NCBI GenBank assembly: GCA_963575745.1
Contig: CAUYUJ010014597.1
Coordinates: forward strand, 82,501-146,500
Reading direction: 5' to 3'
Length of the DNA: 64,000 bases
DNA from: Prorocentrum cordatum
Lineage: Eukaryota > Sar > Dinophyceae > Prorocentrales > Prorocentraceae
Shown here one piece after another: positions 21,034 to 52,920 of the stretch. The notes beneath the pieces are model-generated. The model worked only from the letters and a program-made list of their open reading frames with translations, did no database searches and was not told the origin of the DNA. Positions within the stretch are counted from its first letter, which is position 1, and every line of letters starts with the position of its first letter. Position numbers and translations under genes: made by a program.

Positions 21034-22320
21034 TCACCTTCGGCGCCGGGGCAGGCCATGGCGCCCTGTCTCCTGATGGCGCAGGCGCCGAGCATTCTTC
21101 TTGAGAGTAGCCTCCCCCGTGCGCGACTCGCTGCGCCCCTTCCTCGTCGCGAATATCGGTTGTCGGAGGCGCAACGTGCGCAGGAAGTGGCACGAGCAAA
21201 GGCGGCGCCCGTAGCTGAACATCTCCGCCAGAGTCACAAGTTACCCAGTCCTGATGAACCACGTCTCGCCAGAGGCAGAGTCGTCTTCGACGCAACTCAG
21301 AAGCGCGGTCTCGCCACCATCTAGATCCAGGATCCACTTCATCTCCGCCAGTTCCAGGAATTCCGCATCCCTGTCAGCGTTCTTCCAGGCCAGGTAATCA
21401 CGCGTCTTTTCGCTCTGGGCGCACTGGTGGCGCCAGAACCTGACGCGGCAGAGAGTGTTCACGATTTCAGAAGGCACATCCCTCCACCCGGGCCCCCCCC
21501 AGTGCCGCGCCTCGCCGCTGCGCTTTTCGAGGACGTGCTTGACGTTGGTCTCGTCGTCCTGAATTCCTGCTTTGCGCTTCGATGCCTCGAAGGCGTCTGG
21601 CGTCAGCGCCGCCCGCCCGTCGCCGAGCACGGCATTCGGGCATGCCTCGGCGAAGGGCGCGTCAGAGACAGCGCCAGGACCCCACAGCTCCCCCCACAGC
21701 CGCCGCTTGTAGCGCTGCCTCCTGGAGGCAAACGCGCGCGCGACGGGCCACAGCTGCCCTGCGTTATCTGGGCCGTCGTTTCGGCGGGGGATGCCTTCGA
21801 GAAGCTCCCTCAATGTAGGGGGCGGGTCGCGCCACGCGTCGAGCTTTCTCTGCATGCGCCGGGCGTTTCTGTCCTCGAGCTGCGGCATTTGCCAATCTCG
21901 GACGCGAGCTTGGGCGTCGGTTTCCCAGCGCTCTTTGTTGTCGACGAAGTACTGCTGCCTGGCACACTTTCGGGCGGCGCTGCGAAGCTCGGCCTTGCGT
22001 TCGTCGGGCAATCGTCTGAGCTTCCTCTCAGAGAGACGAGTCCTCAAGCTCACTTCCTCTGTTGCGCCAGAGACAGCATACTCGGGTGCGCCAGAGACAG
22101 CACCCTCCCGCTCGTCCTCTGATAAGCTACAGGAATCAACATCCTGCTCGGTCGGTCTCTGCATGCTTCTGGAACGCATCCTGCCCCGCCGCTCTTCGGG
22201 GGGCTCGGGTTGTCTCCCCCGTCGCATCGTCGTGGCGGTCTCCTCGCTTGCGTCGCCGTCGACGCCCTCGTCGGAATGCGAGCTGCCCAAGTCAGGAGCT
22301 GGAAGAGGCGGACGCGCGCT
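21034..22320 (-). CDS. uncharacterised protein, C-terminal part
   Basis: From about 22320 to TAA 21241 the minus frame looks coding. A Ser/Glu-rich stretch is followed by a charged helical domain: SLRTRLSERKLRRLPDERKA, RQQYFVDNKERWETDAQARV, QLWPVARAFASRRQRYKRRL, VPSEIVNTLCRVRFWRHQCA, then SASGETWFIRTG. After the TAA at 21243-21241 the same frame stays open to about 21034 (LVTLAEMFSYGRRLCSCHFL), so the TAA may be premature. Upstream of 22320 the frame enters Pro/Ala/Leu-rich low complexity where the correct frame is unclear. It may be the C-terminal half of a larger gene whose N-terminal half is at 22292-23736. Variants of the 14-bp motif occur at 21269, 22061, 22088 and 22391. Function unknown. 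Confidence 0.4.
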
Positions 22321-23736
22321 CCCTGTTGCAGCGGGCGGAGGCGCCGCGATCGCACTGGCCAAGGCGGGCGGAGGCGCCGCGATCGCACAGCCGCCAGAGG
22401 CAGGCAGGAGCGGCTCGGCGGCAGGAGCAGGCGCGGGAGTCAGGGGAAGCTGCCCTGGCGGCGTCGGTTCTGGCACGTCTCGGGGGGGATGACGCGGCGG
22501 CGGCGGCCGCAACTGAGCCCGCGTCGTCGTCGCCGAATCTGCTGGCCAGCTGGCGGCCGGCGGCGGCGGCGGCGAGCTGGCCCTCACCCACGCGCGCGCA
22601 ACCAAAAAAGCGGGTGTTTTTTTTTCCACGCGCGCCAGAGGCAGCGGCGTTGCTCTTCTTTGAAAGCGTGGCAGGCGGCGTCGCCGCCTTCTCATGCAGC
22701 GGAAGAAGCGGCGCCTCCTTCGCATTATCCTTTGGCGCCGCCTGCGGCCGCCACTCCAGCGGCGCAGGCCGCGGCGTGACTGGCCCTGGTGGCAGCGGGG
22801 TAGCGGCGCGGCCGCCGCCGCCCACGCTGGCTGGCGCAGGAATTTTCGCAGGGGCAGGCGGCGGTCGTGGCGCAGGAGCTGGCGCAGAAGCTGGCGCAGG
22901 AGCTGGCGCAGGAGCAGCAACCGCAGCAGCTGCAGCAGCCAGAGGCAGCGTCCGCGCCAGAGGCAGCGGACGCGCCAGAGGCAGCGGACGCGCCAGAGGC
23001 AGCGGAGACGCCAGAAAGAGCGTTATAATCCACGGCGTATATGTCGGGCACGCGGTGGGCGGCTTCGACCAAGTCGAAAAAGACTGGCCGCGCCACATCC
23101 TCTTGCTTCCTCGAGAGCTTCCTTTTAGGAGCAGGTCTCCACCACAAGCCGAGCAGCCCAGAAGTGTGTTCAGTCACCTTTTTGGCGGTATCTTTCACAG
23201 AGCACCCGATGAGCATCTCCACACGAGCCGACGCCGACAGGATCAGGTCAAATGGGCTCTGGTGGTATTTGACCGCGCGACCGAACTGATCAAACTCAGA
23301 TGGGTCGCGTTCTTTCTCTGCTTTGTATTTTCCCTACGTAATGAGTGGCGGCCAAAGCCCAGATCCCGTGGATGTTCGCGCAGTGCATGCGCGGCGCCAA
23401 CGGCCTCCCAGCCGCGCCAGAGGCAGCGGAGTACTGGGGCAACGCCACCGCTTTGCCACTGAGACGACCAGCCACTCGGACCACCTCTGCAGTGGGCACG
23501 AGGAACGGCGGAAGCCACCATTCTTGGACAACCCTGTCACTGTCGATCTTGGTGCACGCGCACAACGGACTCTGGCCGCTCGGCCCTGGCCGAGGAGCCC
23601 GCGTGAAAGTAACCCCGCCAACAGCTCGGATGGGATGTCCAACTCGCCAGGTCCTCCAGGACTCAGCTACCGACACCACTCGGTCCAACGCGCCAGAAGC
23701 AGCGTTCTGCTGCTGGCCGCCGCGGTGACTCATCAT
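22292..23736 (-). CDS. uncharacterised Pro/Ala-rich protein, frame broken
   Basis: It starts at ATG 23736 (MMSHRGGQQQ) and contains the in-frame motif reading AASGA twice. Near 23325-23332 (GGGAAAA) the sensible frame shifts by one base: ...ALAATHYVGK continues as YKAEKERDPSEFDQFGRAVK in another frame. That frame then reads ASARVEMLIGCSVKDTAKKV and FFDLVEAAHRVPDIYAVDYN, and enters four tandem AASGA motifs at 22938-23015. After that a different frame looks best: a Pro/Ala tract, then PLLPLHEKAATPPATLSKKS. Two frame changes mean either introns, decay or sequencing error in homopolymers. No function is recognised. Confidence 0.35.
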
Positions 23737-24536
23737 GGCAAAGGCGCCGCGAGCGCGCCTTCCCGGCTCGAGCCTGCAAATGCAACGGACATGCGGGAGG
23801 AGCAGGAGGAGGGGGGGGAGCAGCTGAAGCATCAAAACGAGCAGCAGCAGCAGCACAGGCAGCAGCAACATTGAGGAGCAGCCTCAGCAGGAGGGAGCGA
23901 GCAGCAGCAGCAGCAGTAGAAGAAGAGGGAGAAGAAAGAAGAGGAGAAGCAGCAGCCGCAGCACCACAAGCAGCAGCAGCAGGAGCAGCAGCATTGGGGG
24001 GCAGCCTCAACAAAGGGAGGCCGAGGAGGAGGAGGAGCAGCAACAGCGGCAACAGCAGCGACAGAAGCAAGAGGATGAGGAGGAGGAGGAGGAGGAGCAA
24101 CAGCACTAGCAGCAGCAGCAGCAACATCAACATCAAATTTGAGGAGCAGCCCCGGGAGGAGGAGTCGGAGGGGGAGCAGCAGCAGCGCGAGCAGCAGCAG
24201 CAGGGGCAGCGGCTTTCAGGAGGAGGTGGAGCAGCAGCAACAGCAGCAGCAGCAGGAGAAGCTGGAGGAGGCGGAGCAGCAGCAGCAGCAGCAGCAGCCG
24301 GCAGCAGCAACATAGGATGAGCCTGCCTGTTTTTCCCGCGCGCGGCTGCGCACCAGCAAGGCAGTCCAGAGCACCTCGCACGGAGCCCTGGTCGGGAGAA
24401 CCGCGCGCCAAAGGAAGGGAGCGCCAGAGGCAGCCTGCAAGCCACTGCTGCGTGAAAGGATATCAGCGCCAGAGGCAGCCTGCAAACCATTAAGGGGATC
24501 AGCGTCAGAGGCAGCTGGAAGCGGTCACACTCCTGC

Positions 24537-25065
24537 TCACTCCTTTTTGATGCATTTCCTGGTCGCGGAGTCCCGAACGAACTTCGACTTGTGCTTATGC
24601 GTGTCGACAAGGATCGGCAGATCCCTGCAAAGCTTGTACATGTCAAAAGCAATGCAGAACGCTGCGCCCATGTAGAACGAGTGGGCGAGCGCGACGACTT
24701 GACCAACTCGGATCTCCACGTCGAACTCACGTCTCCAAGGAGGCCGAGCGCCAGAGGCAGCGGATCCACATGGAGGCTGAGGCAGGCGGGCCCGACGGAG
24801 CAGCGTCGTCTGGCCACCATCTGTGTCCAAAACCTACGCAGCCTTTTGCCGCGCGAGCCAACCGTCGGACTTTCGATTGCACAGGCCACCTCCGCGCCAC
24901 CCCGGTCCTTGCGAACTGGGAATGCCAGAGTCTCGGATGAAGAACGTCGCTAGAGTCCAGATGCTTCCAGCCGAAGTCCTGGAGGACTCTGACTTCCCCG
25001 TCGTGTTTGTTGAACAAGTGCTTCAAGAACTCAGGAACGGTCGCGATATTCCAATCCACGCGAAG
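24537..25065 (-). pseudogene. duplicated gene fragment, copy A, frameshifted
   Basis: The minus strand reads NIATVPEFLKHLFNKHDGEV, QDFGWKHL and HPRLWHSQFARTG. It then needs a one-base shift near 24883-24886, where this copy has GGCC and copy B has GCC, to continue as TTLLRRARLP, AASGA, FDVEIRVGQVVALAHSFYMG and PILVDTHKHKSKFVRDS. The extra base is directly visible by comparing the two copies. The aligned protein character on both sides argues that this was once one exon. Function unknown. Confidence 0.5.
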
Positions 25066-25430
25066 CTACTGCCACGTGGGTAAATCCCGCGGCAAGCACT
25101 GGGCGAGCGGCCCACCGCCAGAGGCAGGTTTCAAGCGTGGCCAGGCGAGAGTAAGCCAGCATTCCTCCGCGAGAGAAACGTTTCCCAACTCCTCCCTGAA
25201 AAGGTTCAGATAATGCATCTTCTGCGACCTGAGAATTTCACAATGTCCTACCGCTCGTCCTGGCACTCGACCTTGTCGCTGAAGTGTTTCATGCCGTTGA
25301 TGATATTTGAAAGGTTCAGAACGGGCAGGCATTCGCCGTGCAGGAGGACGCGACGCCGCCTGCTCCTCGTTAGGTTTCCACTGCGCAGCCAAGCTACTGC
25401 TTCCTTTGGCCAACCTCGGTAATCAATTTT

Positions 25431-25690
25431 TTAAAAATGAATATGCGCCAACTTAAGATTCCGCGTTGCGCCAGAGGCAGCAGGAGAAGCAGCACCAATG
25501 GCGGCAGCAGGCATTGCGCCAGAGGCAGCATCACGCACTGCGCCAGAATTAGCACCACGCTCCGCGCCAGAGGCAACGTCTTCCCTGTCAGAGCCTCCGC
25601 GGTCCGTTTTGCTCCCAGAGCTGCTGTCGCTGTCGGAGTCGGAGTGGCTCTGCTCCGAAGAGCCGTCGGATTCTGTCGCCAAGTCGATTA
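25431..25690 (-). CDS. Ser/Asp/Glu-rich fragment with repeated AASGA, copy A
   Basis: The minus frame reads ATESDGSSEQSHSDSDSDSS, then GSKTDRGGSDRED, then five successive Ala-Ser-Gly-Ala-type units from the 14-bp motif. It closely parallels 28543-28893. It looks like a disordered exon of the same gene as 24537-25065, lying upstream of it on the minus strand. No start codon is convincing. Confidence 0.35.
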
Positions 25691-25873
25691 GATACGTAGG
25701 TCCAGTCTTCTTGCATTCCGCCTCCGTGAGCTCCTCGCCGCCTGATCCCGCGAGCGCGCCAGAGGCAGCTTTGGGACGGCCGCTGGATCACGACTCACCC
25801 TCGTGCATGGGAAAGACGCTCTGCACATCCAGCTCGCAGACGTCGAAGAGGACCTGCCGCGCAGCAACTGGGG

Positions 25874-26965: not shown

Positions 26966-27599
26966 AGCAGGAGAAGAAGCGGGAGAAGCAAGAAGAGGAG
27001 AAGCAGCAGCCGCAGCACCACAAGCAGCAGCAGCAGAAGCAGCAGCATTTGGGGGCAGCCTCAACAGAGGGAGGCGGAGGAGGAGGAGGAGCAGCAACAG
27101 CAGCAGCAGCAGCAGCGACAGAAGCAAGAGGATGAGGAGGAGGAGTAGCAGCAGCACTAGCAGCAGCAGCAGCAGCGACAGCAGCATCAGCCCAGCAACA
27201 TTGAGGAGCAGCCTCGAGAGGAGGAGTCGGAGGAGGAGCAGCAGCAGCACGAGCAGCAGCAGCAGGGGCAGCGGCTTTCAGGGGGAAGTGGAGCAGCAGC
27301 AACAGCAGGAGCAGCAGGAGAAGCTGGAGGAGGCGGAGCAGCAGCAGTAGCAGCAGCTGGCAGCAGCAGCAGCAGAGGATGAGCCTGCCTTCTTTTTCCC
27401 GCGCGCGGCTGCGCACCAGCAAGGCAGTCCAGGGCACCTCGCGCGGAGCCCTAGTCGGGAGAACCGTGCGCCAAAGGAAGGGGGCGCCAGAGGCAGCCTG
27501 CAAGCCATTGCTGTGTGACAGGATATCAGCGCCAGAAGCAGCCTACAAACCATTGGCGCGTGAAAGGGGATAAGCGCCAGAGGCAGCCGGAAGCGGTCG

Positions 27600-28205
27600 C
27601 ACTCCCGCTCGCTCCTTTTTGTTGTATTTTCTGGTCGCGGAGCCCCAAACGTACTTCGACTTGGGCTTTTGCTTGTGGGCAAGGATCGGCAGATCCATGT
27701 AAAGCTTGTACATGTCACCAGCAGTGCAGAACGCTGCGCCCATGTAGAACTAGTGGGCGAGCGTGACGACTTGACCAACTCGGATCTCCACATCGAACTC
27801 CTGTCTCCAAGGAGGCCGAGCGCCAGAGGCAGCGGCTCTCCAAGGGGGCGGAGGCAGGCGGGCCCGACGGAGCAGCGTCGTCTGGCCATTATCTGTGCCC
27901 AAAACCCACGCAGCCTCTTGCCACGCGAGCCTGCAGTCGGACTTTCGATTGTACAGCCACCTCCGCGTCACCTCGGTCCTTGCGGGCTGGGGATGCCAGA
28001 GTCTCGGATGAAGAACATCGCGAGAGCTCAGATGCTTCCAACCGAAGTCCTGGAGGACTCTGACCTCCCCGTCGTGCTTGTTGAACAAGTGCTTCAAGAA
28101 GTCAGGAACGGTCGCGATGTTCCAACCAACGCGAAGCAACTGCCATGTGGGTGAATCCCGCGGCAAGCACTGGACGAGCGGACCACCGCAGGAGGCAGGT
28201 TTCAA
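27600..28205 (-). pseudogene. duplicated gene fragment, copy B, premature TAG
   Basis: The minus frame is open from about 28205 through VGWNIATVPDFLKHLFNKHD, GEVRVLQDFGWKHL, SDCRLAWQEAAWVLGTDNGQ, AASGA and EIRVGQVVTLAH, and meets TAG at 27752-27750. The same frame continues as FYMGAAFCTAGDMYKLYMDL and LAHKQKPKSKYVW. In copy A the corresponding codon is TCG (Ser), so the TAG here is a substitution at two bases or an independent event. Function unknown. Confidence 0.5.
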
Positions 28206-28542
28206 GTGTGGCCAGGCGTGAGTAAGCCAACCTTCCTCCCTGCCCTCCGCGAGAGAAGCGTTTCCGAACTACTCCCTGAAGAAGGTTCAGATAATGCATC
28301 TTCTGCGGCCCGAAAGCCTTCGCGATGTCCCATCGCTCGTCCTGGCACTCGACCTTGTCGCTGAAGTGCTTTATGCCGTTGATGATATTGAAAGGTTCAG
28401 ATTGGGCAGGCATTCGCCGTGCAGGAGGGCGATGAGCCTGGAGACGCGACGTCGCCTGCTCCTCGTGAGGTTTCCACTGCACAGCCAAGCTACTGCTTCC
28501 TTTGGCCAACCTCGGTAATCCATAACATAAACCTGCGTAAAC

Positions 28543-28893
28543 TTAAGATTCCGCGTTGCGCCAGAGGCAGCAGGAGAAACAGCACCAAAAGGCGGCAGCA
28601 GGCATTGCGCCAAAGGCAGCACCACGCACTGTGCCAGACGCAGCACCACGCTCCGCGCCGGAGGCAGCGTCTTCCCTGTCAGACCCTCCGCGGTCCGTTT
28701 TGCTCCCAGAGCTGCTGTCGTTGTCGGAGTCGGAGTGGCTCTGCTCCGAAGAGCCGTCGGATTCTGTCGCCAAGTCGACTAGAAACGTCGGTGCATTGCG
28801 TTTCGCCTCCGCGGGCCCCTCGCCGCCTGATCCCGCGAGCGCGCCAGAGGCAGCGCTGGGATCGCCGCTTGTCCACGACCCACCCTCGCGCAT
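28543..28893 (-). CDS. Ser/Asp/Glu-rich fragment with repeated AASGA, copy B
   Basis: This frame parallels 25431-25690: FLVDLATESDGSSEQSHSDS, GGSDREDAASGAERGAAS and further Ala-Ser-Gly units. On its 5' side (28893-28950) the same strand reads QVFFDVCELDAQSVFAM in continuity, with a possible acceptor at GCGGCAG. It is probably an exon of the duplicated gene. The 14-bp motif appears here in several diverged forms (28605, 28630, 28655), suggesting in-frame drift. Confidence 0.35.
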   Translation of the reverse strand: MREGGSWTSGDPSAASGALAGSGGEGPAEAKRNAPTFLVDLATESDGSSEQSHSDSDNDSSSGSKTDRGGSDREDAASGAERGAASGTVRGAAFGAMPAAAFWCCFSCCLWRNAES

Positions 28894-29125
28894 GGCAAAG
28901 ACGCTCTGCGCATCCAGCTCGCAGACGTCGAAGAAGACCTGCCGCGCAGCCCTGACGTGCGTGTCAGTCCATTATGTACCTTCTCTGCTCGGCTGCCACC
29001 AAAGACCAAACATGTCCTTGTGGATGCCCTTCGTGGCAAGGCCCATGTAAAAAAAAAACCTGTCCACTCTCTGCCAAACAGACTGACAGGATGTACGGGC
29101 TCTGGTAGCCATCGTTTGCGCGGCC

Positions 29126-29805
29126 TCAGCTATCCCGCACACTCTTGCACCCCTTCCCCTTGCGATGAATCAGGGGCGTCGCGGTGAGAGGATGCTCACT
29201 TGCCAACGCCCGCATGCGGTCCACACTCGTGGCGCGCTGCATCTGCATCGTCGCGCCGGAGGCAGCGGCACCAGGACAGATATCATGGACATGCAATGGG
29301 AGCTCTCTGCCAACTGGCTCGACGAGCGGAGGAAACCGCGCAGACATGGGAATGCAGACCTGGTCGCCGAGAAACTTGCCGCCCCGCATCATGCGCGGGT
29401 AAACCCCTCCTATCACGCCCCTCCAGAACAGCAAGGGGGTCCTGTCAATATGCAGAGCGGCCGCCCAACGTAATCTCTTGGTGGGCGCTCACTCTTCCAC
29501 CGCAGCACACGGCTGGTCAGGTCTTCCACCGCCGCTTCATCGCAACCGTCCTCGGCGCCAGAGGCAGCCGCTTGCGAGCTGCGTCGACGCTTCCCCATGA
29601 TGACGCGCGCGATGCGCGCGATGGCGGCCGCCAAGAAAAGAGGCGCACTCGAGCCGAACAGGCTGCGATAGACAACGGCGAGTCTGCGAGGGTGAGGGTG
29701 GGGCTGACTAAGACCACGCAGTAGAGGAATCAGGCAGGGGTGAGCGGCGGGAGGCGGGAGTGCTAAGCTGAGGACGAAGATGACCTCGGAGCAGGGGGCG
29801 ACCAT
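29126..29805 (-). CDS. uncharacterised protein, two frame segments
   Basis: An upstream segment begins MGKRRRSSQAAASGAEDGCD near 29600 and reads VEDLTSRVLRWKSERPPRDY. Near 29440-29480 the sensible frame changes to RTPLLFWRGVIGGVYPRMMR, FLGDQVCIPMSARFPPLVEP, HVHDICPGAAASGATMQMQR, and ends HRKGKGCKSVRDS with a stop near 29126. The change may be a short intron or an indel. AASGA occurs once in each segment. Function unknown. Confidence 0.35.
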
Positions 29806-30059
29806 GAAAGCTGAGGGCGGGAGCGACGCTGAGGATGGAGATGACCTCGGAGCTGGTCAGACTACAGAAGGTCAGGCTGATGTCGCATGCAGTGCGAGGA
29901 TCAAGCGGGAGCTCGCACGAGGATGGGGTGGAGCAGATGCACATTCACATGAAGATCTTTTCACCATGACCCAACGCATAAGAGAGGCCTCTACGCAATC
30001 TGCGCAAGGATGAAGGGGCGCCAGAGGCAGCCGCAGATATGCGCCAGAGGCAGCAACTG

Positions 30060-31840
30060 TCAGCACGGCATGCGCATCACAAAGAAGCGCTCCACCCTGT
30101 CAACGCCAGGAAGGTGCAAACACCCTCCTTCGCGGAAATGCTCGGCAAGAGCTTCGACGCGATCCGTGTTCAGCGCAAACTCGAGCGCGTACCGCGCGAG
30201 CGCCATGCACAGAAGTGCCATTTCTGCCGGAAAGGGCCGTGAAGAGAGGTAGTCGCACAAATCCACAGCGCCCCCCCCCCCCCCCCCCCCACCACCCCCC
30301 CACCACCCACACACACACACACAGCGCGATGCACGGCGCCCAGTCCCACGCCAGGGGCAGTGAATGCCGCATGAGGCATTTCCGCGATGAACATGATCTG
30401 CAAGCGCACGCGAACGGCGCCCCAGCATTCGGACCCCCACCCCCGCATAAGAGGCATGGTTTCGCGCAGCTCGAACCGTGAACTTCGAGCACATTGCGCC
30501 TGCTCAACAAACGACAAGAAGTCCAGGACGCTCGAAAGACGACTGTCCCAGACGACGTGCCAGTTGAGCAGTGGCCGCAAAACTTCAGCACGCCAACGCG
30601 GGCGCTTACGACTAGGACGAGTACCACCGTAAGAAACGGCGCCAGAGGCAGCCGAATGATCCGCAGCAGCAGCGGGGCTCGAGAGTTCAACCTGCTTTGC
30701 GCATAGCCTCGGGCGTGGAACCTCCGCACGTGCAGAAATGATGCCCGAGTCACCCGCTACAATAACAGGAGGTGCTGGCTGTGGCACCTCTTCACGCCCG
30801 ATCACCTCCTTAGTGTTCTGAGAAAGACAAAGGAAGCACACCAGATCATCCAGGTCGTACTTAGCGCCAGAGGCAGGCCAGACGTCCTCATATATGAACT
30901 GGCAAACTTCGAGGGCGCCCTGGTACTGGAGATCTCCTGCAGCCGCAACCCCCTTTTCCGCGCCAGAGCCCATGCCAACAAACACATCCCAATCCCTCTC
31001 GGATAAAGTCGGTCGAACATCTTCTGCCTTGAAAAGCCAGCGCAAAAGCGTCGTGCGCCCATGCATCGCATTCGCCCACAACCGCACACAACGCATATGC
31101 ACCTCGCAAGTGGCATACGATGCGCCAGAGGGAGCACTTGCGCCAGAGGCAGCAAAGGATGCCGCCAGCTTCTTCGCGGCATCCTCCAAGCGGCCACCTC
31201 GCAATTCCTCCATGAGGACTCCTCCTCCGCTAGTCTACTCTTGGTCGGATTCATCACGAGGCAGTAGGAAAAGATGCCAGCGGCGCCGCCGCCCAATGCG
31301 CGCACCTGACGGCGCGGCATGACGTCCACGGTGCCCTCGTGGGCATTGATTGGCCGTGCATACGACCGAGAACTTATCTGGTTGAAGAATCTCCATGGCC
31401 TCTCGCCACGCACGTTCGTACAAGGCTGCTCGGCCCTGTGCGCCGGCCACCTGGAGTTCGCCCTTGCGCCGCAGCACATTGTTGAGGATGCGCGCGTCTG
31501 GCCACCCCCAGTAGCAGGGGAACGCCGCGCAGAGAATCTCCAAACGCAACGCGCCAGAGGCAGCGACATGTTCTCGAAGCACCATACCTGCCGTTATGCC
31601 CATGCGAACGTCGCGCCTGCGACGCAGCGACGCGATGCAACCGCCCTGCACGAAGTCACCGAAGCAGTTCGCGACAGACCCGATGAATTTCCGCATCCGC
31701 TTCACCTTAAAGTGCGCCCCATTGCGCATGGGGCGGAACTGATGGCAATCCTGAGTCTTGCACGACCCGTCGTCGCGAGCACGCTGCCCGCAGATGGGGC
31801 GCCAATGCGCCATCGCCGAGTAAAGCGCCAGAGGCAGCAC
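30060..31840 (-). CDS. uncharacterised AASGA-containing protein, frame interrupted
   Basis: The minus frame is coherent from about 31735 (MRNGAHFKVKRMRKFIGSVA; the frame is open from 31840). It continues through QGGCIASLRRRRDVRMGITA, LREHVAASGALRLEILCAAF, CYWGWPDARILNNVLRRKGE, TAG at 31237-31235, then LRGGRLEDAAKKLAASFAAS, HMRCVRLWANAMHGRTTLLR, DVWPASGAKYDLDDL and CWGAVRVRLQIMFIAEMPHA. At 30271-30322 a C20 run plus (AC)n intervenes. The frame beyond it differs: AVDLCDYLSSRPFPAEMALL, ARYALEFALNTDRVEALAEH, FREGGCLHLPGVDRVERFF, ending TGA at 30060. Both flanks look like one protein. The motif is read in frame as AASGA or PASGA at five or more sites. Function unknown. Confidence 0.5.
30271..30322. 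repeat. C20 homopolymer and (AC)n inside a coding region
   Basis: Twenty C bases are followed by ACC-rich sequence and a short (AC)n. Coding frames on the two sides differ. A homopolymer this long is prone to length error in sequencing, so the frame change may not be real. Confidence 0.85.
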
Positions 31841-32560
31841 AGAAACTCATGCGCCAGAGGCAGCAGGCGCGCCAGAGGCAGCGCCTCAGTTTATCTATGC
31901 GCTCGCCTGCAGAACCGGGGAACCTGCGGTGCATTCGCCTCGGGCGGGTGGCTGCGCCACTGGCCTTGAGCCCGAGCTGCGTCTGACCTGCTGCTCCTGC
32001 TGCTGCTGCTCCTGCTGCAGCTGCTGGTCCTGCTGCTGCTGCTGTTGCTTCTCCTTTTCCTGATCCTCCTCCATCCTCCTCCTCTCCTGCTCCCAGCCCT
32101 CGCCCCCTCCTCAGCCCCCTCGCCTGGCGAAGGTGAGCAAACCCGATTTTTGTCCTCGACTGTTGCAAACAACCGAGAAGTACATGCAACATCTGCAGAC
32201 AGCCCAAAGAATGGCAGTCGCCAGCGTGGCCAACAGCCGGGTTACGAGTCTGAATTCTGCACTCGCCCGAGCTAGTTTTGCTGCGCCAATGTTGCAAACA
32301 GCCGAATCATGAAGCTCAACATGCGCAACAAACAATCGATCTGCGAAAACCGATAAGGCGAGCAGCCAAAAATGAAGAGACCCAATCGTGTAAATAGAAA
32401 GACTGCCAGACCCAATTTTGCAGACAGAAAAATTGCGAGCGTCAATCTTGCAAAGAGAAACGTTGCGAGCGCAAGTTTTCATGTTATAAGGCTAGCGAAT
32501 TTTCCTCCACCCTGGCCTTAACAACATCTCCTGATTGTCCTCCTCCTCCTCTTCCTCCAC
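31841..32560. other. CTG-rich tract and spacer
   Basis: CTG/CTC-rich triplets lie at about 31990-32090. The remainder to 32560 contains scattered TTGC/GCAAC repeats, such as CAATTTTGCAGACAGAAAAA and CAATCTTGCAAAGAGAAACG near 32410-32465. No gene is supported. Confidence 0.4.
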
Positions 32561-32564
32561 AACG

Positions 32565-33685: not shown

Positions 33686-33740
33686 TCCTTGTAACTTACA
33701 TTAAAGCAGAAGTTGGGAGTGTGCGTTGTCGCCTGGCACT

Positions 33741-43200: not shown

Positions 43201-46200
43201 GGGTCTATTCTTCCCCTGGTCGGGTCTAGTTTCCCTGTTGTCGGGTCTAGATTTCCCTGGGGTCGGGTCTAGTTTTTCCCTTGTCGGATCTAGTTTTTCC
43301 TTTGGTCAGATCTAGTTGTCCTTTGGTCGGGTCTATTTTCCACTGGTCGGGTCCCTGGTCGGGTCTAGTTTTCCTTGTGGTCGGGCTTAGTTTTCCCTTG
43401 GTCGGGTCTAGTTTTCCCGTGGTCGGGTTAAGTTGTCCCTGTGGTCGGGCCTAGTTTTTCCCTGGTTGGATCTAGTTTTCCTTTGCTCGTGTTTAGTTTT
43501 CCCCTGGTCGGATCTAATTGTCCTCTGATCGGGTCTATTCTTCCTCTGGTCGGGTCTAATTTTTCACTGGTCGGATCTAGTTGTCCTTTGGTCGGGTGTA
43601 GTTTTCCCCTGGTCGGGTCTAGGTTTTCCTCTGGTCGGGTTTAGTTTCCCTGTGGTCGGGCCTAGTTTTTCCTTGGTCGGATCAAGTTGTCCTCTGGTCG
43701 GGTCTAGTTTTCCCCTGGTCGGGCCTAATTGTTTCTCATGGTCGGGTCTAGTTTTCCCTGTGGTCGGGCCTAGTTTTTCCCTGGTCGGATCTAGTTGTCC
43801 TTTGGTCGGGTCTAATTTTTCCTTGGTAGGATCTAATTTTCCGGTGGTCGGGTATATGTTTCCCCTGGTCGGGTCTGGTCGGATTTGGTTTTTCATGGTC
43901 GGGTCTAGTGTTCCCTTGGTCGGGTCTAAATTTTCCCCTGGTCGGGTCTAGTTTTCCCTGTGGTCGGGTCTAGTTTTTCCCCGGGCCGGATCTAGTTTTC
44001 CTCTGCTCGGGTCTAGTTTTCCTTCGGTCGGATCTAATTTTCCGCTGGTCGGGCTTATTTTTCCACTGGTCGGGTCTAGTTGTTCCCTGGTCGGATCAAG
44101 TTTTCCGTTGGTCGGGTCAAGTTTTTTCATGGTCGGGTCTAGTTTTTCCCCTGGTCGGGTCTCGTTTTCCCTGTGGTCGGGCCTAGTTTTTCCTTGGTCG
44201 GATCTAGTTTTCCTCTGCTCGCGTTTAGTTTTCCTTTGGTCGGATCTAGCTTTCCTCTGGTCTGGTCGATGTTTCTCCTGGTCGGGTTTAGTTTTTCCTT
44301 GGTCGGATCTACTTTCCCTCTGGTCGGGTATAGTTTTCCTTTGATCGGTTATGATTTTTCCCCTGGTCGGGTCTAGTTTTCCCTGCGGCCGGGTCTAGTT
44401 TTCCCCTGGTCGGATCTAGTTGTCCTCTGGTCGGGTCTAATTTCCCCCTGGTCGGGTGTAGTTTTTCACCTGGTCGGGTCTAGTTTTCCCTGTGGTCGTG
44501 TCTAATTTTTCCTTGGTCGGATCTAATTTTCCTCTCGTCGGGTAAATTGTTCCTCTGGTCGGGTCTCGTTTTTCCCTGGTCGGATCTACTTTCCCTCTGG
44601 TCGGGTCTCGTTTTCCCTGTGGCCGGGTCTAGTTTTTCCCTTGGTCGGGTCTCGTTTTCCCTGTGGTCGGGTCTAGTTTTCCCCCTGGTCGGGTCTAGTT
44701 TTCCCTGTGGTCGGGTCTAGTTTTTCCTTTGTCGGATCTAGTTTTCCTCTACTCGGGTATGGTTTTTCCCTGGTTGGATCTAACTTTCCCCTGGTCGGGT
44801 CTATTTTTATCCTGGTCAGGTCTAGTTTTCCCTGTGGTCGGGCCTAGTTTGTCCTTGGTCGGGTCTAGTTTTCCTCTGGTCGGGCCTAGTCTTTCCCCTG
44901 GTCGGGTCTAGTTTTTCCCTTGGTCGGGTCCAGTTTTCCCTGTGGTCGGGCCTAGTTGTTCCTTGGTCGGGTCTAGTTTTCCTCTGGTCGGGCCTAGTCT
45001 TTCCCCTGGTCGGATCTAGTTTTCCTCTGGTCGGGTCTAGTTTTTCCCTGGTCGGATCTAGTTTTCCTCTGTTCGTGTTTAGTTTTCCTTTGGTCGGATC
45101 TAGCTTTCCTCTGGACGGATCTATTTTTCCCCTGGTCGGGTCTAGTTTTTCCCTGGTCGGGTCTACTTTCCCTCTGCTCGGGTCTAGTTTTGTCCTCGTC
45201 GGGTCTAAGCTTTCCCATGGTCGGGTCTAGTTTTCCTTGTGGTTGGGCATCGTTTGTCCATTGTCGGATCTAGTTTTCCTCTGGTCGGGTTTAGTTGTTT
45301 CCTTTGGTCAGGTCTAGTTGTTCCCCTGGTCGGGTCCAGTTTTCCCTGTGGTCGGGTCTAGTTCCCCCCTGGTCGGGTCTCGTTTTTCCTATGGTCGGAT
45401 CTAGCTTTCCTCTGGTCGGGTCTAGTTTTTCTCCTGGTCGGGTCTAGTTTTTCACCTGGTCGGGTCTAGTTTTCCCTGTGGTCGGGCCTAGTTTTTCCCT
45501 GTGGTCGGATCTAGTTTTCCTCTGGTCGGGTTTAGTTTTTGTCCCTGGTCGGATATAGTTTTCCTCTGGTCGGGTCTATGTTTCCCCTGGTCGGGTCTAG
45601 TTGTTCCCTGGTCGGATCTAGTTTTCCTTTGGTCGGGTCTAGTTTTCCCCTGGTGGGGTCTAGTTTTTCCCCTGGTCGGGTCTAGTTTTCCCGGTGGTCG
45701 GGCCTAGTTTTTCCCTGGTCTGATTTAGTTTTCCGTGTGGTCGGGTCTAGTTGTTCCCTGGTCGGATCTAGTTTTCCTCTGGTCGGGTCTAGTTTTTCAC
45801 CTGGTCGGGTCTAGTTTTTCCCCTGGTCGGGTTTAGTTTTCCCTGTGGTCGGGCCTAGTTTTTCCCTGGTCGGATCTAGTTTTCCTCTCGTCGGGTAAAT
45901 TGTTCCTCTGGTTGGGTCTCGTTCTTCCCCGGTCGGATATACTTTTCCTCTGGTCGGGTCTCGTTTTCCCTGTGGCCGGGTCTAGTTTTTCCCTTGGTCG
46001 GGTCTCGTTTTCCCTGTGGTCGGGTCTAGTTTTTCCCCTGGTCGGGTCTAGTTTTCCGTGTGGTCGGGTCTAGTTGTTCCCTGGTCGGATCTAATTTTCC
46101 TCTGGTCGGGTTTAGTTTTTCCATGGTCGGATCTACTTTTCCTCTGCTCAAGTTTATGTCTTCCTTGCTCGGGTCTAGTGTTCCCTGTGGTCGGATCTAG

Positions 46201-46640
46201 TTTTCCTTTGGTCGGGTCTAGTTTTCCTTTGCTCGGGTCAATTTGTTTCCTGGCCGGGTCTAGTTTCCCCTGTGGTCGGGCCTAGTTTTTGTTTGGTCGG
46301 ATCTAGTTTTCCTCTGCTCGGGTCTAGTTTTTCCCTGGTCGGATCTAGTTGTCCTATGGTCGGGTCTATGTTTCCCCTGGTCGGGTCTTGTTTTTCCCTG
46401 GTCGGATCTAATTTTCCTATGGTCGGGGTCTAGGTTTCCCCTGGTCGGGTATAGTTTTTTTTTCTGGTCGGGTCTACTTTTCCCTGTGGTCGGGTCTAGT
46501 TTTTCCCTGGTCGGATCTATTTTTCCTCAGCTCGGGTCTAGTTTTTCCGCTGGTCGGGCTTATTTTTCCGCTGGTCGGGTCTAGTTTTGCCCTGGTCGGG
46601 TCTAGTTTTTCCTTTGGTCGGGTCTATTCTTTCCCTGGTC
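40268..46640 (+). repeat. ~20-bp satellite, block 3 (6.4 kb)
   Basis: Several hundred degenerate units of the GGTCGGGTCTAGTTTTCCCT family, all in the same orientation as blocks 1 and 2. Two box types alternate: GGTCGGGTCTAG and GGTCGGATCTAG. Local higher-order runs occur where a CCCTGTGGTCGGGCCTAG unit is followed by a TTTTCCCTGGTCGGATCTAG unit, giving a ~40-45-bp period in parts of 42.9-46.3 kb. Confidence 0.95.
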
Positions 46641-46868
46641 ACGATGTCGGTGGTCATGGCGTCGCTGACTGCGCTGATGATGTCGGTGGTCATGATGGCG
46701 ACTACGATGACGGTGATGACGATGCCTAGTTGTTCGGCCCGCAAGCGTCGCGGAGCCAGCTGCCGCGACGCCGCCTTGGCCTCAGAAGGCGCGCCAGAGG
46801 CAGCGTCACGGGCGCGCCAGAGGCAGCGAGTCGGCCACGCCAGAGGCAGCGTCTCGGGCAACCATCTC
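46641..46868. other. short unique spacer with three 14-bp motifs
   Basis: CGATGTCGGTGGTCATGGCG and a near copy (GATGTCGGTGGTCATGATGG) lie at 46642-46700. Motif copies follow at about 46790, 46812 and 46836. This may be the C-terminal end of the 46869-47891 gene if its TAG is read through (EMVARDAASGVADS), but that is weak. Confidence 0.35.
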
Positions 46869-47891
46869 CTAGCGAAGGTCTTCCCAAGGGTTGCTATTGT
46901 TCTGCCCGCTTCCTGAGGGCGGTGATGTGTCGGGGCACGCCAGAGGCAGTGCATTCTGGCCGCTTCCTGAGGCCGCTTCCTGAGGGCGGTCAGTTGGCGG
47001 GCACCCTTCGGCCGCTTCAGGCAGCTCCCTAAGACCGCTTCGTGTTGGGGCGCGCTCGCCACGGCGGGGCACGCCAGAGGCAGTGCCTACGTCCACTTCG
47101 CCCATGGCGGGGCGCGCCCATGGCGGGGCGCGCCCCTCCTGCCGCGCCCAGTTCGCCCACGTGATGGGCATGCCTTTATTGTCGGCCTTCTCGCGCCAAG
47201 CGAATTCGTCGGAGTGTCTGTCGAGAAAGTCCTTCAGCCCCCCAGGCGCCAAAAGCTTGTTGAACGTCTCGAACGCGCGCTCGTCGCGCCACTACAACTT
47301 GTCGCGGGAAATCCGCGACGGATCGAACTCACCGCCGTGCGTTTTGAGAGCGTCGCGGACTAGTTCAACCAAGCGCGCGTCAGCGTCAGGCGCGTTAGCT
47401 TCCGAGCCCGCGCCCTGGGGGCGCGCAGGGGTGCGCGCTGGCAGCGCGCGCCCGCCAGAAGCGGGGTCAGCGGCGGCGCCGGGCATATTGGCCACGAGCT
47501 CGTCGGGCGGCGCCTTCCAGTGCTTCGGTCGGAGCACAAACTGGCCTGGGTTTTCGCTGACGGGCGAAGCGATGGCTCGGAGGCAAGCGAGTTCCGACGC
47601 CCCCTCTTTCGTCGCGCTTTCCCCTATCGCAACGAGCCGACGGCCATCTCCTGGCGCAAAGCTGTTCGGCAAAGTCAGGGTGCGCCGCCAGCCCGCGCAA
47701 GAGGCAGCGCATTCCTTGCACTTGCTGACGGCTGGGACCAAAGCGCCTCCGCGCACTTGAGGGCGCGTCGAGGCATGGTTATTCAGCACGGTGCGCCAAG
47801 TGATCTTCTTGTCGCTGACGCGTTGCTCCAGCAGGTGCGCTACGACCGCTTCGACGCGCGCGGTCTCGAAGTTCGGCCATTGCGCCGCCAT
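46869..47891 (-). CDS. uncharacterised protein interrupted by one TAG
   Basis: ATG 47891 begins MAAQWPNFETARVEAVVAHL. The frame reads VSDKKITWRTVLNNHAS, VPAVSKCKECAASCAGW, PGQFVLRPKHWKAPPDEL, and ARLVELVRDALKTHGGEFDP. It meets TAG at 47294-47292 inside DKL*WRDERAFETFNKLL, then continues GGLKDFLDRHSDEFAWREKA, MPITWANWARQEGRAPPWAR, GEVDVGTASGVPRRGERA, and a Pro-rich tail to TAG 46869. Both sides of the first TAG have strong coding character with no composition change. Two Cys-x2-Cys/Cys-x3-Cys-like residues (KCKEC, AASC) could bind metal, but that is a guess. The 14-bp motif is read in frame in variant form. Function unknown. Confidence 0.5.
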
Positions 47892-48149
47892 GGGGCCCGC
47901 GCAACGCGCGACGCGCCAGAGGCAGCGACTTCGCGCGCGGCGGAATAAGGCGAAATGAGTGCGCTAGTGGCAAAGCAAGGAGCGCTGAGCAGCAGCGGGC
48001 TCGAACCGAAATGTGACGGAAAGCTGTGGCGAGGTCCTAATGGATGTTCGGGGTGATCTGGTTTCTTATGACTTCTCTTTAAGGTGGTTCATCCCGATGC
48101 CAATGACGTCGATGCTTATGACGACGACGACAAAGAGAAAACTAAGCAC
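47892..48149. other. spacer upstream of 46869-47891 gene
   Basis: One copy of the 14-bp motif at 47912. Likely 5' region of the gene starting at 47891. No other gene is seen. Confidence 0.4.
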
Positions 48150-48352: not shown

Positions 48353-49615
48353 AGGAACAACTAGACGCGACCAGGAGAAAACTACACACAACCAAAGGAA
48401 CACGAAACACGACCAGATAAACAAAACAACGCGACCAAGGAACAACTAAACGCGACCAGGGAAAACTAAACGCGACCGCGGAGAAAACTAAACGCGACCT
48501 GAGGGAACTAAACACACCAAGGGAAAACTCAACGCGACCACAGGAAAACTAAACGCGACCAGGGGAGAATTAAACGCAGCCAGGAGAAAACTATGCCCGA
48601 CCAAGGGAGAACTAAACCCCGACCAGGGCAAAACTAGACCCGACCAAACACCAAACTAAACCCGATCAGGGAAAAATTAAACCCGACCATAGGAACAACT
48701 ACATCCGACCAGGGACAAACTAGACCCGACCAAGAAAACACTAAACCCGACCAAGGGAAAACTAGACCCGACCAGGGAAACAACTAAACCGACCATGATA
48801 AAAATACTAATCATAATAAACGACCAAAGAAAAAAACTAGACCCGACCAAGAACAAACTAAACCCGACCAAGGGAAAAGTAGACCTGGCCGGGGAAAAAC
48901 TAAACCCGACCAGAGGAGAACTAGACCCGACCAACAGAAGATTTAAACCCGACCAGAGGACAACTAACCCCGACCAATGAAAAACTAGACCCGACCGAAG
49001 AAAAACTAAACCCGACCAAAGAAAAAAACTAGCCACGACCAAAGGAAAACTCATCCCGACCAAAGGAAAACTAGACCCGGCCAGGGAAAAAGTAAACCCG
49101 ACCATGGGAAAACTAAACCCGACCAAGGGACAACTAAAGCCGGCCGAGGAAAAACTAAACCCGACCAAGGAAAAACTAGACCCGACCAAATGACAAACTC
49201 GACCCGACCAAAGGAACAACCAGACCCGACCAGGGGAACACTAGACCCGACCAGGGGAAAGACCAGGCCCGACCAGAGGAACAACTAGACCCGACCAAAG
49301 GAAAACTAAACCCGACCAAAGAAAAACTAGACCCGACCATCGGAAAAATTAGACCCGACCAGGGAAACTAGACCCGACCAAAGGAAGAGTAGACCCGACC
49401 AAAAGAAAACTAGACCCGACCAAAGAAAAACTAAACCCGACCAGAGAAAGACTAGACCCGACCAAAGGAACAACCAGACCCGACCAGGGGAAAACTAGAC
49501 CCGACCAGGGAAAAAAAACAAGTAGACCCGACCAAAGAACAGACTAGACCCGACCAAGGGAAAACTAAACCCGACCATGAGAAAACTAAGCGCGACCATA
49601 GGAAAACTGAACAGG
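48353..49615 (-). repeat. 20-bp satellite, block 4, inverted
   Basis: Same satellite read on the minus strand (CCCGACCAGGGAAAACTAGA on plus). Units next to the inversion point (about 48365-48590) have the CGCGACC box, matching the plus-oriented units at 48150-48226. Beyond about 48590 they switch to the CCCGACC box of the large arrays. Variant types are therefore arranged symmetrically about the inversion point. Confidence 0.95.
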
Positions 49616-49975
49616 AGACGTGGGATATGGTAACCAATGCCATGAGAACATGACGGAACATAACCACAAATAGCATGATTGCGCCGATGGCGATGACGAC
49701 GGAGAAATCGCGACCGCCGCGACCTGCGGCGATGGCAGCGGCGGGTGCGATATGTCCGAGCCGAGCGCAGCCGCAGCATTCGCGCCTCAGAAGGGCCCAC
49801 GCCGCCGACAGCCGTGGGGCCTACATCACTGTCGCGCGCCACCGCAGAACTCATCCTCAGAACCGATGCCACAGGGCCCCTCTCGGAAACGAATGCTCGA
49901 GCGACCTCTCACGCGGCTACGGGCGCGCCGGAGGCAGCGTCGTGGCACGCCAGAGGCAGTGTGTCAAATGCCCAC
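49616..49975. other. spacer between satellite and gene
   Basis: Mixed unique sequence with two 14-bp motif copies (49927, 49950). It probably holds the 3' region of the gene ending at 49976. Confidence 0.4.
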
Positions 49976-52920
49976 CTACTCGTCGTCCGAGCTCGCGCCA
50001 TCCCCCTCCCCCTCCTCATCCTCGCCGTCCCCGGCCACTGGCATCAACAGACGGTTCGCCTCCATCATGGCTCCGCTGAAATACTTGCTGGCTTTCTCGA
50101 CGAACTCGGCGTCGCCGCCCAATTGCTCCGCGTGCCCCTCCTCCTCCTCGTGGCCCGCCTTGTGCATCGCGCACCTGTCCACGATGGCATCGAGCCAGTC
50201 CCGGTGCGCATCGTTGGCAGCGATGCCTTCGCACTCAATAGCGCCAGAGGCAGCAACAGCCAAAGCGCCAGAACCTGGAGTGAAGTCCACGACGCGGGTC
50301 ACTTTGTGGTGCTCCACGAGAGTCTGCCACAAGCTGAGCGACTTCACCTCGGCGTGCGAGAACGGGTGGCCCGTCGAGTCGACGCCCCCCTGCAGGCGCG
50401 GTTGCCCCCCGTCAACGCCAGCGCGAGATGCAGCTCCCAAGATGCTCATCTTCGTCTCGTGGTCCACGCGAGGGAGCTCGGAGAAGCGCCGCATTGGGAT
50501 ACCGCTGTATGACGTGTCTGCGGTCGAGGACTCGCCGCGCGCGTTGAACTCCGCACGGTGCAGCACTTTCCGCGGCGGGCCCTTGAGTGGCATCGAGAAA
50601 AAAGCTGCACCCCTGTTGTTCTTCGTGTAGCTCGACGCCCTGGCCGCGGACCGCGGGTCCACCTTCTTCGCCGGTTGCTCGTGCACGAACCAGCGCTCGA
50701 CGTGCGCGCGGGCGCCTCCCGACTCCAACTTCGCATCGAAGGACTCAATTACCCTTCGGTTCGCGCGGCTCCTGCCGTCGAGGAAGATGAAGACACCATC
50801 CGTCTGCCTCTTCTGCAAGAAGAACTCGATGACGCGCTTGAACTTCGCCTCGCCACGCGCCATCTGCTCGTTCACCCTCGCCTTGGCGCCTTGCTTGACG
50901 ACGTTGGGCGGGAACGTGTCCGCTGCGAGGATGAACGCGCGAACGTCGTTCTTCTTCCCGAAGCGGCGCCCGCTGAGCGCACCCCACAAGCCCTGCATCT
51001 GCGCCACTGCGTACTCCGCGCCAGAGGCACCGCCGACAGACGGCAAACTGGCGAACTTCACAGTTTTCCTGCGGAGCTGCTTGAGCTGCTCCTGGAACTT
51101 CTGGAGCTCTGCCTCTTGCTCGTCCCCGAGCTCGGACATCCCCAACAAGCCGAGATTTGCATCCAGATCGGGGTCGGTGGTGATGGGCCCGCCCGTGCGC
51201 GCGGCCACGATGGCGCGGCACTTGGCGCTGGCGCCCTGGCTGGTCTCGGCGAGGTGCGCTTGCCAGACGGACCCAGTGGTGCTGTTCTGCAACTCCTGCC
51301 GGGCAAGCTCGGCAATTTCGTCGTCGAAAGCGCTCGACCACAGAGGCCGCGCGACGTCGATCATCGCCGTCGTCTTGATTCCGATGCTCAGCCACGGGGG
51401 GCGCAAACAATGTCTCCATCCCGTCGGCGCCGCCGCCTGAGTCGGACGCGCGGCGCGAAGCCGCGGGCCCATCCGCGCCAGAGGCAGCGAACTTCTGGGG
51501 GGCGTGGAGAGGCGTCTTAAATGCCGCCATGTCGTTCCCCACTTCCTTGTTCATGAGAAACGCCTCGTGGAAGATGTGCTCGACGAGCTCCTTTTTCTTG
51601 AAGAGCGCGCGGGGCGCCCCTGGCGTCTTCCTATCGCGCCCGACGACCCGGCGCACGACCAGTTCCTCGCCCTTCGGGGCGTCGCCCGTCAAGCGGGCCA
51701 CGCGGAAACTGTCCATGATGAAAACGAGCAATTCCCTGGCCTCGGCGTCAGAACCGCCCCTCGCGGAGCAGGCGAAGCCGATCCCCATGAGAAGCGCAGG
51801 GTCGCGAAGCTCTGGAAAATACACTTCGGCCAGCGCGAAAGCCGAACTGCAGGCACCGTCGAGGACGAAAGGGCGCAGACCTTTCAGCGCCGCGGCGGTT
51901 GCAGCGGCGCGCGCTTTTCCTTTGAACTAGAGGCCGTGGGCCTTCAGCGCAGCCTCCAGCTTCGACACTGGTTCCTGTTTGGCGAGACAGTTCTCCGCGC
52001 TGGTCAAGCGGCGCGTTTGTTCTGCGAGCCGCCAGGCGGCCTCGGCGCCAGAGGCGGCATGCGCAGAGAACATCTGCTCTGAAAATGCCAGAGCGGCCAA
52101 GCGGGTCGCGTCGCCATCAGGCAGCAAAAAGCATCCTGATGGGCACGGACAACGCGGCATTGAACTGAGGCCACGCGCGGTCTTCGTTGGACTGCTGGAG
52201 CGCCTCGCTCATAGCAGCGCGCCGCGTGGTGACCGCCGCGCGCCACGCGAGCATGGCCAGAGCCTCTGCCAAGCAAACTCCAGGCTTGTTAGGCTCAAAC
52301 CGCTGGGCGACCTTGACGTCGACCACCAAGGCGGGGATAGGCGCGTCGAAGGAGAGGCGCCGCGAGGGCGCGTGCTTGGAGGAGAAGGAGTACGCCTCCT
52401 CCGACCACGCGCCCATGGCACCCACGAGCTGGCTCACGGTGACGTCGTCGATGTCCGAGCAAATCGGGTCCAACATCCACGCCGTCCCCGCTGCCTCGTA
52501 CTCCTTGGTGCGGGAGAAGCTCGCAACCAAGTTGTCGTAGTCCATGACCTCGCGAAACGAACTGAGGTTTGCGCCAGAGGCAGCATCAGTGATGGCCAAC
52601 GGCGGAATCAAAGAACACTTGGCGGGCACCGCGAAGGACACCTCGCGCTTGCGCTGCCCCAGGAGGCTGAGCAAACTATGGTCGACGCGGTGCTTCACTT
52701 GGCGCACCCACTCCTTGACGTGACCCTGCTGCATCGACGCGTGGTCCGTCTCGAGGAGCTGCGCGATGCACAGGGCCGGCGGCGCGCCAGAGGCAGCGGC
52801 GGGCGGCGCGCCAGAGGCAGCGGCGGGCGGCGCGCCAAAGGCAGCGGCTGGTGAGGCCGCCGCGGCCGCCGCCTTCTTCGCAGGCGACGGGATCCCCGCA
52901 TCACCTGCCCTCTTGCCCAT
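49976..52920 (-). pseudogene. long uncharacterised gene with three frame lesions
   Basis: Read on minus from ATG 52920: basic start MGKRAGDAGIPSPAKKA, three tandem AAASGAPP units, then VKEWVRQVKHRVDHSLLSLL, PICSDIDDVTVSQLVGAMGA, PALVVDVKVAQRFEPNKPGV. Near 52130 a one-base shift at a degenerate motif (GCTGCCTGATGGCG) changes frame to TRLAALAFSEQMFSAHAASG. In-frame TAG follows at 51929-51927, then LKGLRPFVLDGACSSAFALA, REKELL-like and KKKELVEHIFHEAFLMNKEV. At a C-run near 51400 the frame shifts again to IDVARPLWSSAFDDEIAELA, KNDVRAFILAADTFPPNVVK, RQTDGVFIFLDGRSRANRRV and VVDFTPGSGALAVAASGAIE. It ends acidic at TGA 49976. TPGSGALA recalls the glycine-rich SAM-binding loop of methyltransferases, so a methyltransferase-like C-terminus is possible. 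It may instead be one or more expressed genes if the lesions are errors or introns. Confidence 0.45.
52785..52852. repeat. 24-bp tandem repeat built on the 14-bp motif
   Basis: Three units of CGCCAGAGGCAGCGGCGGGC plus GGCG; the third has CAAAG in place of CAGAG. In the minus frame each unit encodes eight residues (GAPPAAAS), near the N-terminus of the long gene. Confidence 0.85.

Follow-up and report, generated by a model that had tools for sequence, protein, structure and literature searches.

The 64,000-nucleotide window of the Prorocentrum cordatum genome analysed here contains a 14-mer that recurs in one orientation through several genes. Read from its sequence, the 14-mer represents the unvarying portion of a hairpin of 16 nt, NN-C-[T]-GCC-TCT-GGC-G-N'N'. 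The hairpin has six pairs, a single bulged base and the triloop TCT, and its outer bases NN are variable yet complementary. In gene sense, here the minus strand, the 12-nt core is CTGCCTCTGGCG, and the bases flanking it are non-random. A first-pass annotation of the window had correctly noticed a small inverted repeat, which is now seen to extend to two further variable bases on each side. The sequence itself shows a hairpin whose outer pairs covary, whose orientation is constant and whose copies are evenly spaced and not bound to one reading frame; its carriers are multicopy, and its bulge base goes with lineage. It is rather likely that this hairpin serves as a repeated RNA tag on the mRNAs of presumed mobile elements, and that a trans-acting protein particular to each lineage reads it so that the RNA is exported, protected or packaged.

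The exact 14-mer occurs 35 times in the window, in a single orientation throughout, where shuffled sequence is expected to yield 0.02. With up to two mismatches there are 76 copies in the whole window against 1.5 by chance; 73 of them fall within 20,959-52,845, all in the same orientation, and the three stray matches are at 3,097, 4,153 and 60,880. A covariance model trained on 70 copies, which match it by construction, was scanned with all filters off and gave 74 minus-strand matches, five of them new. Every one lies within 20,955-52,849 and scores above the best plus-strand match (14.7 bits). Set beside these counts of 73 and 74, the annotation's figure of about 60 copies at 21-53 kb was a fair one, and its observation that none is reversed holds for 20,959-52,845 (73/73). 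Equal numbers on both strands, which it had held would speak against the motif, were not found: the exact core, with any bulge base, is absent from the opposite strand both in the window and in loci L028-L048.

In the 4.128-Gb assembly that was scanned, where the window is G000:C13748:82501-146500, the 14-mer with up to one mismatch was counted 12,064 + 11,282 times, compared with 3,727 + 3,808 for a reversed control. The places among the first 100 of the genome list are mostly islands, each of one orientation, such as those on C689 (24.8-70.3 kb), C663 and C558. Protein P0025, a P. cordatum entry at NCBI, matches C689 at 97.4%. According to excerpts of the published genome description (PMC10666404), the assembly measures 4.15 Gb and 83.7% of genes contain introns. 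Abundant tandem arrays and microsatellites give the window a eukaryotic character; scans of it with Rfam at the gathering thresholds and for tRNAs each returned no match.

The pairing of the outer bases was assessed in the 49 exact cores of the window. Positions -1/+1 are complementary in 45 (28.9 expected) and positions -2/+2 in 40 (16.7 expected), and none of 20,000 shuffles was as high in either case, while at -3/+3 pairing is at chance level. Both outer pairs are perfect in 60 of 75 window copies, where 15.1 are expected and the maximum of 20,000 shuffles was 27. When 70 copies (68 distinct) are aligned, 95.8% of the pair cells pair, and 40 cells have changed on both sides as against 8.8 in shuffles (0/500 as high). 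The inner pair is also compensated in one copy, at 21,658-21,673. Other islands behave in the same manner. Among 112 distinct exact cores, -1/+1 pairs in 101 (66.2 expected) and -2/+2 in 84 (43.7 expected), more than in all 5000 shuffles, and pairing is absent past the second outer pair; this set comprised 165,653 bases from islands and their flanks, with identical 24-nt flanks counted once and L020-L027 left out. The bulge is a pyrimidine without a partner in all 75 window copies. The stems hold 14 G.U but only 3 A.C pairs (one-sided p 0.006), despite equal numbers of C/T and A/G differences (55 of each) between duplicates, which suggests that it is the sense strand that folds.

The hairpin is not tied to one reading frame. 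By the longest open frame, a crude rule, 37 of 75 copies are read as AASGA, 25 as LPLA and 13 as CLWR, so the annotation's reading as Ala-Ala-Ser-Gly-Ala stands for the first group and fails for the other two. AASGA and its kin are the frame in genes C and A; LPLA is the frame in G5, whose sole long open frame at 37.9-36.9 kb is in that phase. Two copies sit 15-52 nt past the stop codon of gene C. As read by eye, copies also bunch towards what look like the ends of A, G4 and G6; broken frames make the stop positions there less certain. In five reading frames of the window (frame A taken from about codon 74 on), the ASG tripeptide uses TCT in 11/11 cases against 14/118 serine codons outside elements; the count is given over all ASG tripeptides, membership of an element being itself defined by likeness to the core.

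The base-pair rule can also be followed in proteins. Among 67 homologous proteins, many of them ENA entries, ASG occurs 207 times against 27 expected. The residues flanking it (A-A, P-G, S-E, T-V) obey the rule at 152 of 164 scorable sites, where 105 are expected and the maximum of 20,000 shuffles was 119; 43 of the 207 sites were dropped, 18 of them G..A. Individual homologous sites hold two complementary states: P..G four times and S..E four times at one (n=9), A..A seven times and S..E three times at another (n=13), and T..V alongside A..A at two further sites. Where gene C aligns well, homologues without the element carry ungapped substitutes, AASGA being replaced by AAAGA, AATGA or ESGGA. 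Complementary flanks would also arise if the element had inserted into a palindromic tetramer; this was rejected as the main explanation, two complementary states being found at homologous sites.

These results bear on the three candidates that the annotation had put forward. The RNA signal is supported; the other two, a linker codon block that spreads and a tiny exonic element that is mobile, are not. Frames differ from gene to gene, some copies are found beyond stop codons, and the outer bases covary as pairs; gene C homologues show ungapped replacement, and homologous sites exchange one complementary state for another. The annotation had also held that its motif would be called into question if orthologues of distant species had these residues too; the residues are in part common with homologues, and this weighs against an insertion of recent date. 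It is the set of carrier genes, rather than the motif, that looks mobile.

The copies are also regularly spaced. In A, B1, B2 and G4 successive hairpin clusters are 327 nt apart (sd 69), with a coefficient of variation (CV) of 0.21 against 0.70 for random placement (0/5000). Over all seven genes the CV is 0.39 against 0.77 (0/5000). Local tandem copies, 18-48 bp apart, are present, and for this test copies less than 60 nt apart were merged, the merging distance and gene bounds being set by hand. In P0040, a homologue from another source, the gaps between ASG clusters are 318, 297, 306, 147, 312, 297 and 171 nt. The remaining homologues are less even (105 gaps, mean 443, CV 0.53).

The bulge base distinguishes two lineages of elements. 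In the window and other islands it is T in 171 of 179 exact cores. In the unit on contig C25 it is A in 22/22 exact cores, spread over G5, C and A, and in 25 of 26 near-cores with up to one mismatch. Of the A-bulge cores, those in G5 read QPLA, those in C read AASGA and those in A use both frames. At the 24 distinct A-bulge sites from all loci, both outer pairs are complementary in 21, where 9.0 are expected and the maximum of 20,000 shuffles was 17; the -1/+1 pair alone forms in 22 (9.3 expected). The first loop base of the A lineage varies (T, A, G or C) and the other two are nearly fixed. Of the further gene-C copies that were typed, three of the C25 lineage are A-type and one of the window lineage is T-type, and in a tree of 20 gene-C proteins a branch supported at 100/100 separates the A from the T types. 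Homologues of gene C from other sources, which are untyped proteins, occur on both sides of that branch. Since the bulge base differs alike at homologous sites, stepwise substitution is unlikely without either a common reader or wholesale conversion.

Coordinates of the hairpins, their carriers and a tandem array are collected in Table 1.

Table 1. Hairpins, carrier gene copies and tandem arrays, in window positions
Feature	Span	Strand	Positions or remarks
Gene C, 11 hairpins	49924..52846	-	52831-52846, 52807-52822, 52783-52798, 52570-52585, 52044-52059, 51474-51489, 51017-51032, 50420-50435 (weak), 50240-50255, 49946-49961, 49924-49939; last two just past stop 49976-49978
Gene G6, 8 hairpins	46790..47927	-	47912-47927, 47694-47709, 47451-47466 (weak), 47070-47085, 46936-46951, 46836-46851, 46813-46828, 46790-46805
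Gene G5, 11 hairpins	34637..37823	-	37808-37823, 37763-37778, 37718-37733, 37697-37712, 37112-37127, 37088-37103, 36555-36570 (weak), 36246-36261, 35846-35861, 35031-35046, 34637-34652
Gene G4, 11 hairpins	30017..31883	-	31868-31883, 31850-31865, 31824-31839, 31550-31565, 31139-31154, 31121-31136, 30863-30878, 30638-30653, 30347-30362, 30040-30055, 30017-30032
B1 (decayed family-A-like gene), 11 hairpins	27483..29569	-	29554-29569, 29252-29267, 28840-28855, 28654-28669, 28606-28621, 28557-28572, 28185-28200 (weak), 27819-27834, 27573-27588, 27528-27543, 27483-27498
B2 (duplicate of B1), 9 hairpins	24420..25770	-	25755-25770, 25563-25578, 25515-25530, 25467-25482, 25114-25129, 24747-24762, 24501-24516, 24465-24480, 24420-24435
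Gene A, 14 hairpins	20958..23704	-	23689-23704, 23413-23428, 22989-23004, 22971-22986, 22953-22968, 22935-22950, 22631-22646, 22390-22405, 22087-22102, 22063-22078, 21658-21673 (compensated inner pair), 21265-21280, 20999-21014, 20958-20973
Gene C copy, broken frame	49976..52920	-	C-terminal part with predicted DNA-methyltransferase fold
Gene G6 copy, broken frame	46780..47891	-	multicopy family
Gene G5 copy, broken frame	34052..37922	-	collinear with long open reading frame on contig C25
Gene G4 region	30000..31812	-	search for relatives without success
Gene A copy, broken frame	20940..23745	-	relatives P0001, P0002, P0004-P0011
21-bp tandem array between element genes	40269..46640		others at 17086-17841, 18981-20729, 48152-49612; no hairpins inside

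The carriers form repeated units. Gene C has 91 scored matches across the genome, and at least 58 contigs hold both C and G5. A table built from 81 of the 91 gene-C and 80 of the 148 G5 matches (second fragments and weak matches were left out, for example on C4595, C13619 and C15055, which hold both) contains 61 C-G5 pairs, always on the same strand, and in 34 of the 61 G5 lies 5.6-6.6 kb upstream of C. The order varies with lineage: copies distant from the window have G5 followed by C at about 5.9 or 6.5 kb, and window-like copies have C followed by G5 at varied distances. G6 is downstream of C on the same strand on C7932, C16771 and C4436, as in the window, and may thus belong to the unit of C.

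A beta-class DNA N6/N4-methyltransferase fold is predicted for gene C (49976-51472, minus strand), where sequence searches gave no match. The likely place of the catalytic DPPY appears by eye and without an alignment to read LDGR. Searches of the carriers against Pfam, PHROGs and PDB sequences gave no convincing match, the Pfam rows being weak and, where shown, below the cut-off; nine carriers had no virus-family match in PHROGs. The long open reading frame of G5 (L046:1-3385, plus strand) matched nothing in Pfam or among PDB sequences. Its stretches LAIDES, SADGAS, RDPAHAIR and ECTVERD may resemble motifs of hAT-type transposases, for which it is a candidate. The predicted structure of family A (mean pLDDT 46.1) was too poor for a structure search. 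Origin of the carriers as retrogenes is unsupported, since a 15-nt pattern for relics of the dinoflagellate spliced leader had 4 matches in the window, near the 2.1 due to chance, and none at 20.9-53 kb.

Some further features of the neighbourhood were noted. B1 and B2, a decayed family-A-like gene, arose by a duplication (23.9-25.9 kb and 26.9-29.1 kb) in which 1755 of 1932 aligned bases are identical. Arrays of 21-22-nt units lie also at 3.4-5.1 kb and 8.4-9.0 kb of L046, so that they are found between the genes of both element lineages; their units look similar by eye, and those of the window hold CCTCTGG in common with the hairpin. A 90-bp tandem array (38128-40134, about 91% alike) adjoins the G5 region. 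From about 4.9 kb of L045, and in the first 2.5-3 kb of L028, three frames are open and third-position G/C is nearly nil, possibly the result of N runs.

If the hairpin is an RNA tag, a putative trans-acting RNA-binding protein would recognise it by the loop, the upper stem and the bulge, and for the two lower pairs it would be enough to pair and so hold the stem. The lineages would have diverged in the hairpin specificity of this protein, each avoiding the factor of the other. Even spacing would allow several proteins to coat one message like beads, and the coated, intronless mRNAs would bear a mark of self by which they would be exported, shielded from decay or packaged. Candidate binders are the proteins of family A, G5 and C. 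A stronger version, which we regard as possible but less likely than not, makes the hairpin an orthogonal RNA barcode: the bulge U or A would be a lineage password placed about every 300 nt on all mRNAs of the element and read by a co-diverged protein encoded by that element, so that only its own messages are exported, protected or packaged and parasitism by relatives in the same nucleus is avoided.

Several observations weigh against a tag of this type. Single hairpins are of modest stability (z -0.33 to -3.79, n=6) and one of the six favours a different fold. In the recent, decayed duplicates B1 and B2 the elements are not visibly better kept than their flanks. The paralogy of A, B1 and B2 inflates some counts and extends to the spacing test, which moreover used gene bounds of our own setting. 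The remaining states at homologous sites are non-pairing or unscorable (S..G, T..A, D..A, V..A, D..K, V..K), and one gene C site reads GGASGA in 19/33 sequences; if coded like the window copy at 51,017-51,032, its third pair would be broken (G.G). Exceptions to the lineage's bulge base are eight of the 179 T-lineage cores, with A in 2, C in 5 and G in 1, and one of the 26 near-cores of the C25 unit, with T. The -2/+2 pair is nearly invariant in the A-bulge set (23/24), so covariation there depends on -1/+1. Finally, typing covered a single whole A-type unit and eight copies of gene C, and label shuffles were equally low in 17-21 of 500.

Other explanations have been weighed against the RNA tag. 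The sense strand might fold as single-stranded DNA and be read by an element protein, such as a transposase, recombinase or the methyltransferase-fold protein. RAYT transposases do read REP hairpins, the carriers resemble a repeated mobile unit, one carrier product has the predicted DNA-methyltransferase fold, and DNA too tolerates G.T pairs; we nevertheless consider a DNA-level role unlikely, because the copies are evenly spaced along gene bodies, follow gene sense at every locus read and are missing from the intergenic arrays of the window. Somewhat less probable again is that an RNA-modifying enzyme, possibly the product of gene C, acts on the hairpin, with the mark rather than a bound protein serving the RNA. 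Since one lineage has U at the bulge and the other has A, no adenine is common to both at that position, and the apparent LDGR in place of DPPY makes the activity of gene C doubtful.

We give very little weight to the insertion into genes of a tiny mobile exonic element or a codon block. The numerous near-identical copies and the local tandem copies would fit it; the ungapped replacement at homologous sites, the presence of the element at homologous sites in other sources, the compensatory states at single sites, the strict orientation and the dispersal of whole gene families do not. An equally poor prospect is mutation without selection. Template switching in quasi-palindromes can produce double changes in inverted repeats and would keep the arms complementary, yet it would have to account for an unpaired pyrimidine bulge in 75/75 window copies, complementarity that ends after exactly two outer pairs and an A/T bulge difference spanning three genes. 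Least credible of all is conservation of AASGA as a peptide, in the form of a linker or cleavage site. The excess of ASG in the homologous proteins is as expected for a peptide, but other genes use LPLA and QPLA frames, copies occur past the gene C stop codon, the serine codon is fixed, and the flanking residue pairs are explicable only as base pairs.

An earlier description of the hairpin was not found in the open-access PMC literature, and the five papers that contain the motif letters are, by title, none of them on dinoflagellates; the element is not described in the excerpts of PMC10666404, PMC11453091 and PMC12787238 that were available. Relatives of family A in IMG/VR gave 76 pattern stretches, of which none was confirmed. 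With the paired-core pattern, one locus in viral contigs was a proline-rich repeat, unrelated by inspection, and 18 stretches in prokaryote genomes were judged from their titles to be chance or local repeats.

By analogy, the hairpins may work like the packaging signals of single-stranded RNA viruses, of which they are not members. Those of the MS2 type likewise place many short stem-loops with a common recognition motif along an RNA and inside coding sequence. The MS2 coat-protein hairpin also carries a bulged base, and there are several such hairpins per viral genome. The likeness in multiple predicted stem-loops with a common motif is clear in the sequence, with 75 copies in seven genes or gene pieces, a covarying stem and a near-invariant bulge and loop. 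The P. cordatum hairpins differ in belonging to a nuclear, dispersed, DNA-encoded gene family and in being very uniform and evenly spaced; viral signals sit in the packaged RNA genome, and these copies are genomic DNA on many contigs. Dispersed packaging signals of RNA viruses, on which the analogy draws, are treated in PMC6281560 and PMC4751978.

Other palindromic systems are less similar. Rickettsia palindromic elements are likewise repeated within the frames of unrelated proteins, and are longer insertions. The P. cordatum element is of 16 nt and one orientation, with covarying outer pairs and sites common to distant homologues, and in gene C, for the subset of sites that could be compared, it is replaced without a gap rather than missing from orthologues as an in-frame insertion would be. 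Bacterial REP palindromes with RAYT are also short, high-copy hairpins, described in the available part of PMC3733652 as extragenic and GTAG- or CGTC-tagged; the present hairpins are eukaryotic, sense-only, within gene bodies and unpaired beyond two outer pairs. Dinoflagellate introners, those of P. cordatum included, spread in genes with inverted repeats, but are intronic with the repeats near intron ends (PMC10666404, in part), whereas the reading frames around the gene C copies are continuous and homologous. Inverted repeats are kept together with protein function in the mitochondrial coding sequence of Nematomorpha, where perfect repeats reach 284 bp; a short common tag is unmentioned in the portion of PMC6649704 consulted.

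Dispersed recognition hairpins running through coding sequence have so far been known in RNA viruses. If the present reading is true, hairpins of this kind in a repeated nuclear element, evenly spaced, covarying and lineage-coded, would let a selfish element label its RNA in a novel manner. Material for a test is at hand in an element of 16 nt in which one base switches with lineage, in two lineages within one nucleus and in the 34 tabulated two-gene units of near-constant C-G5 spacing. The hairpin also provides a handle on the gene families of a huge and poorly annotated dinoflagellate genome.

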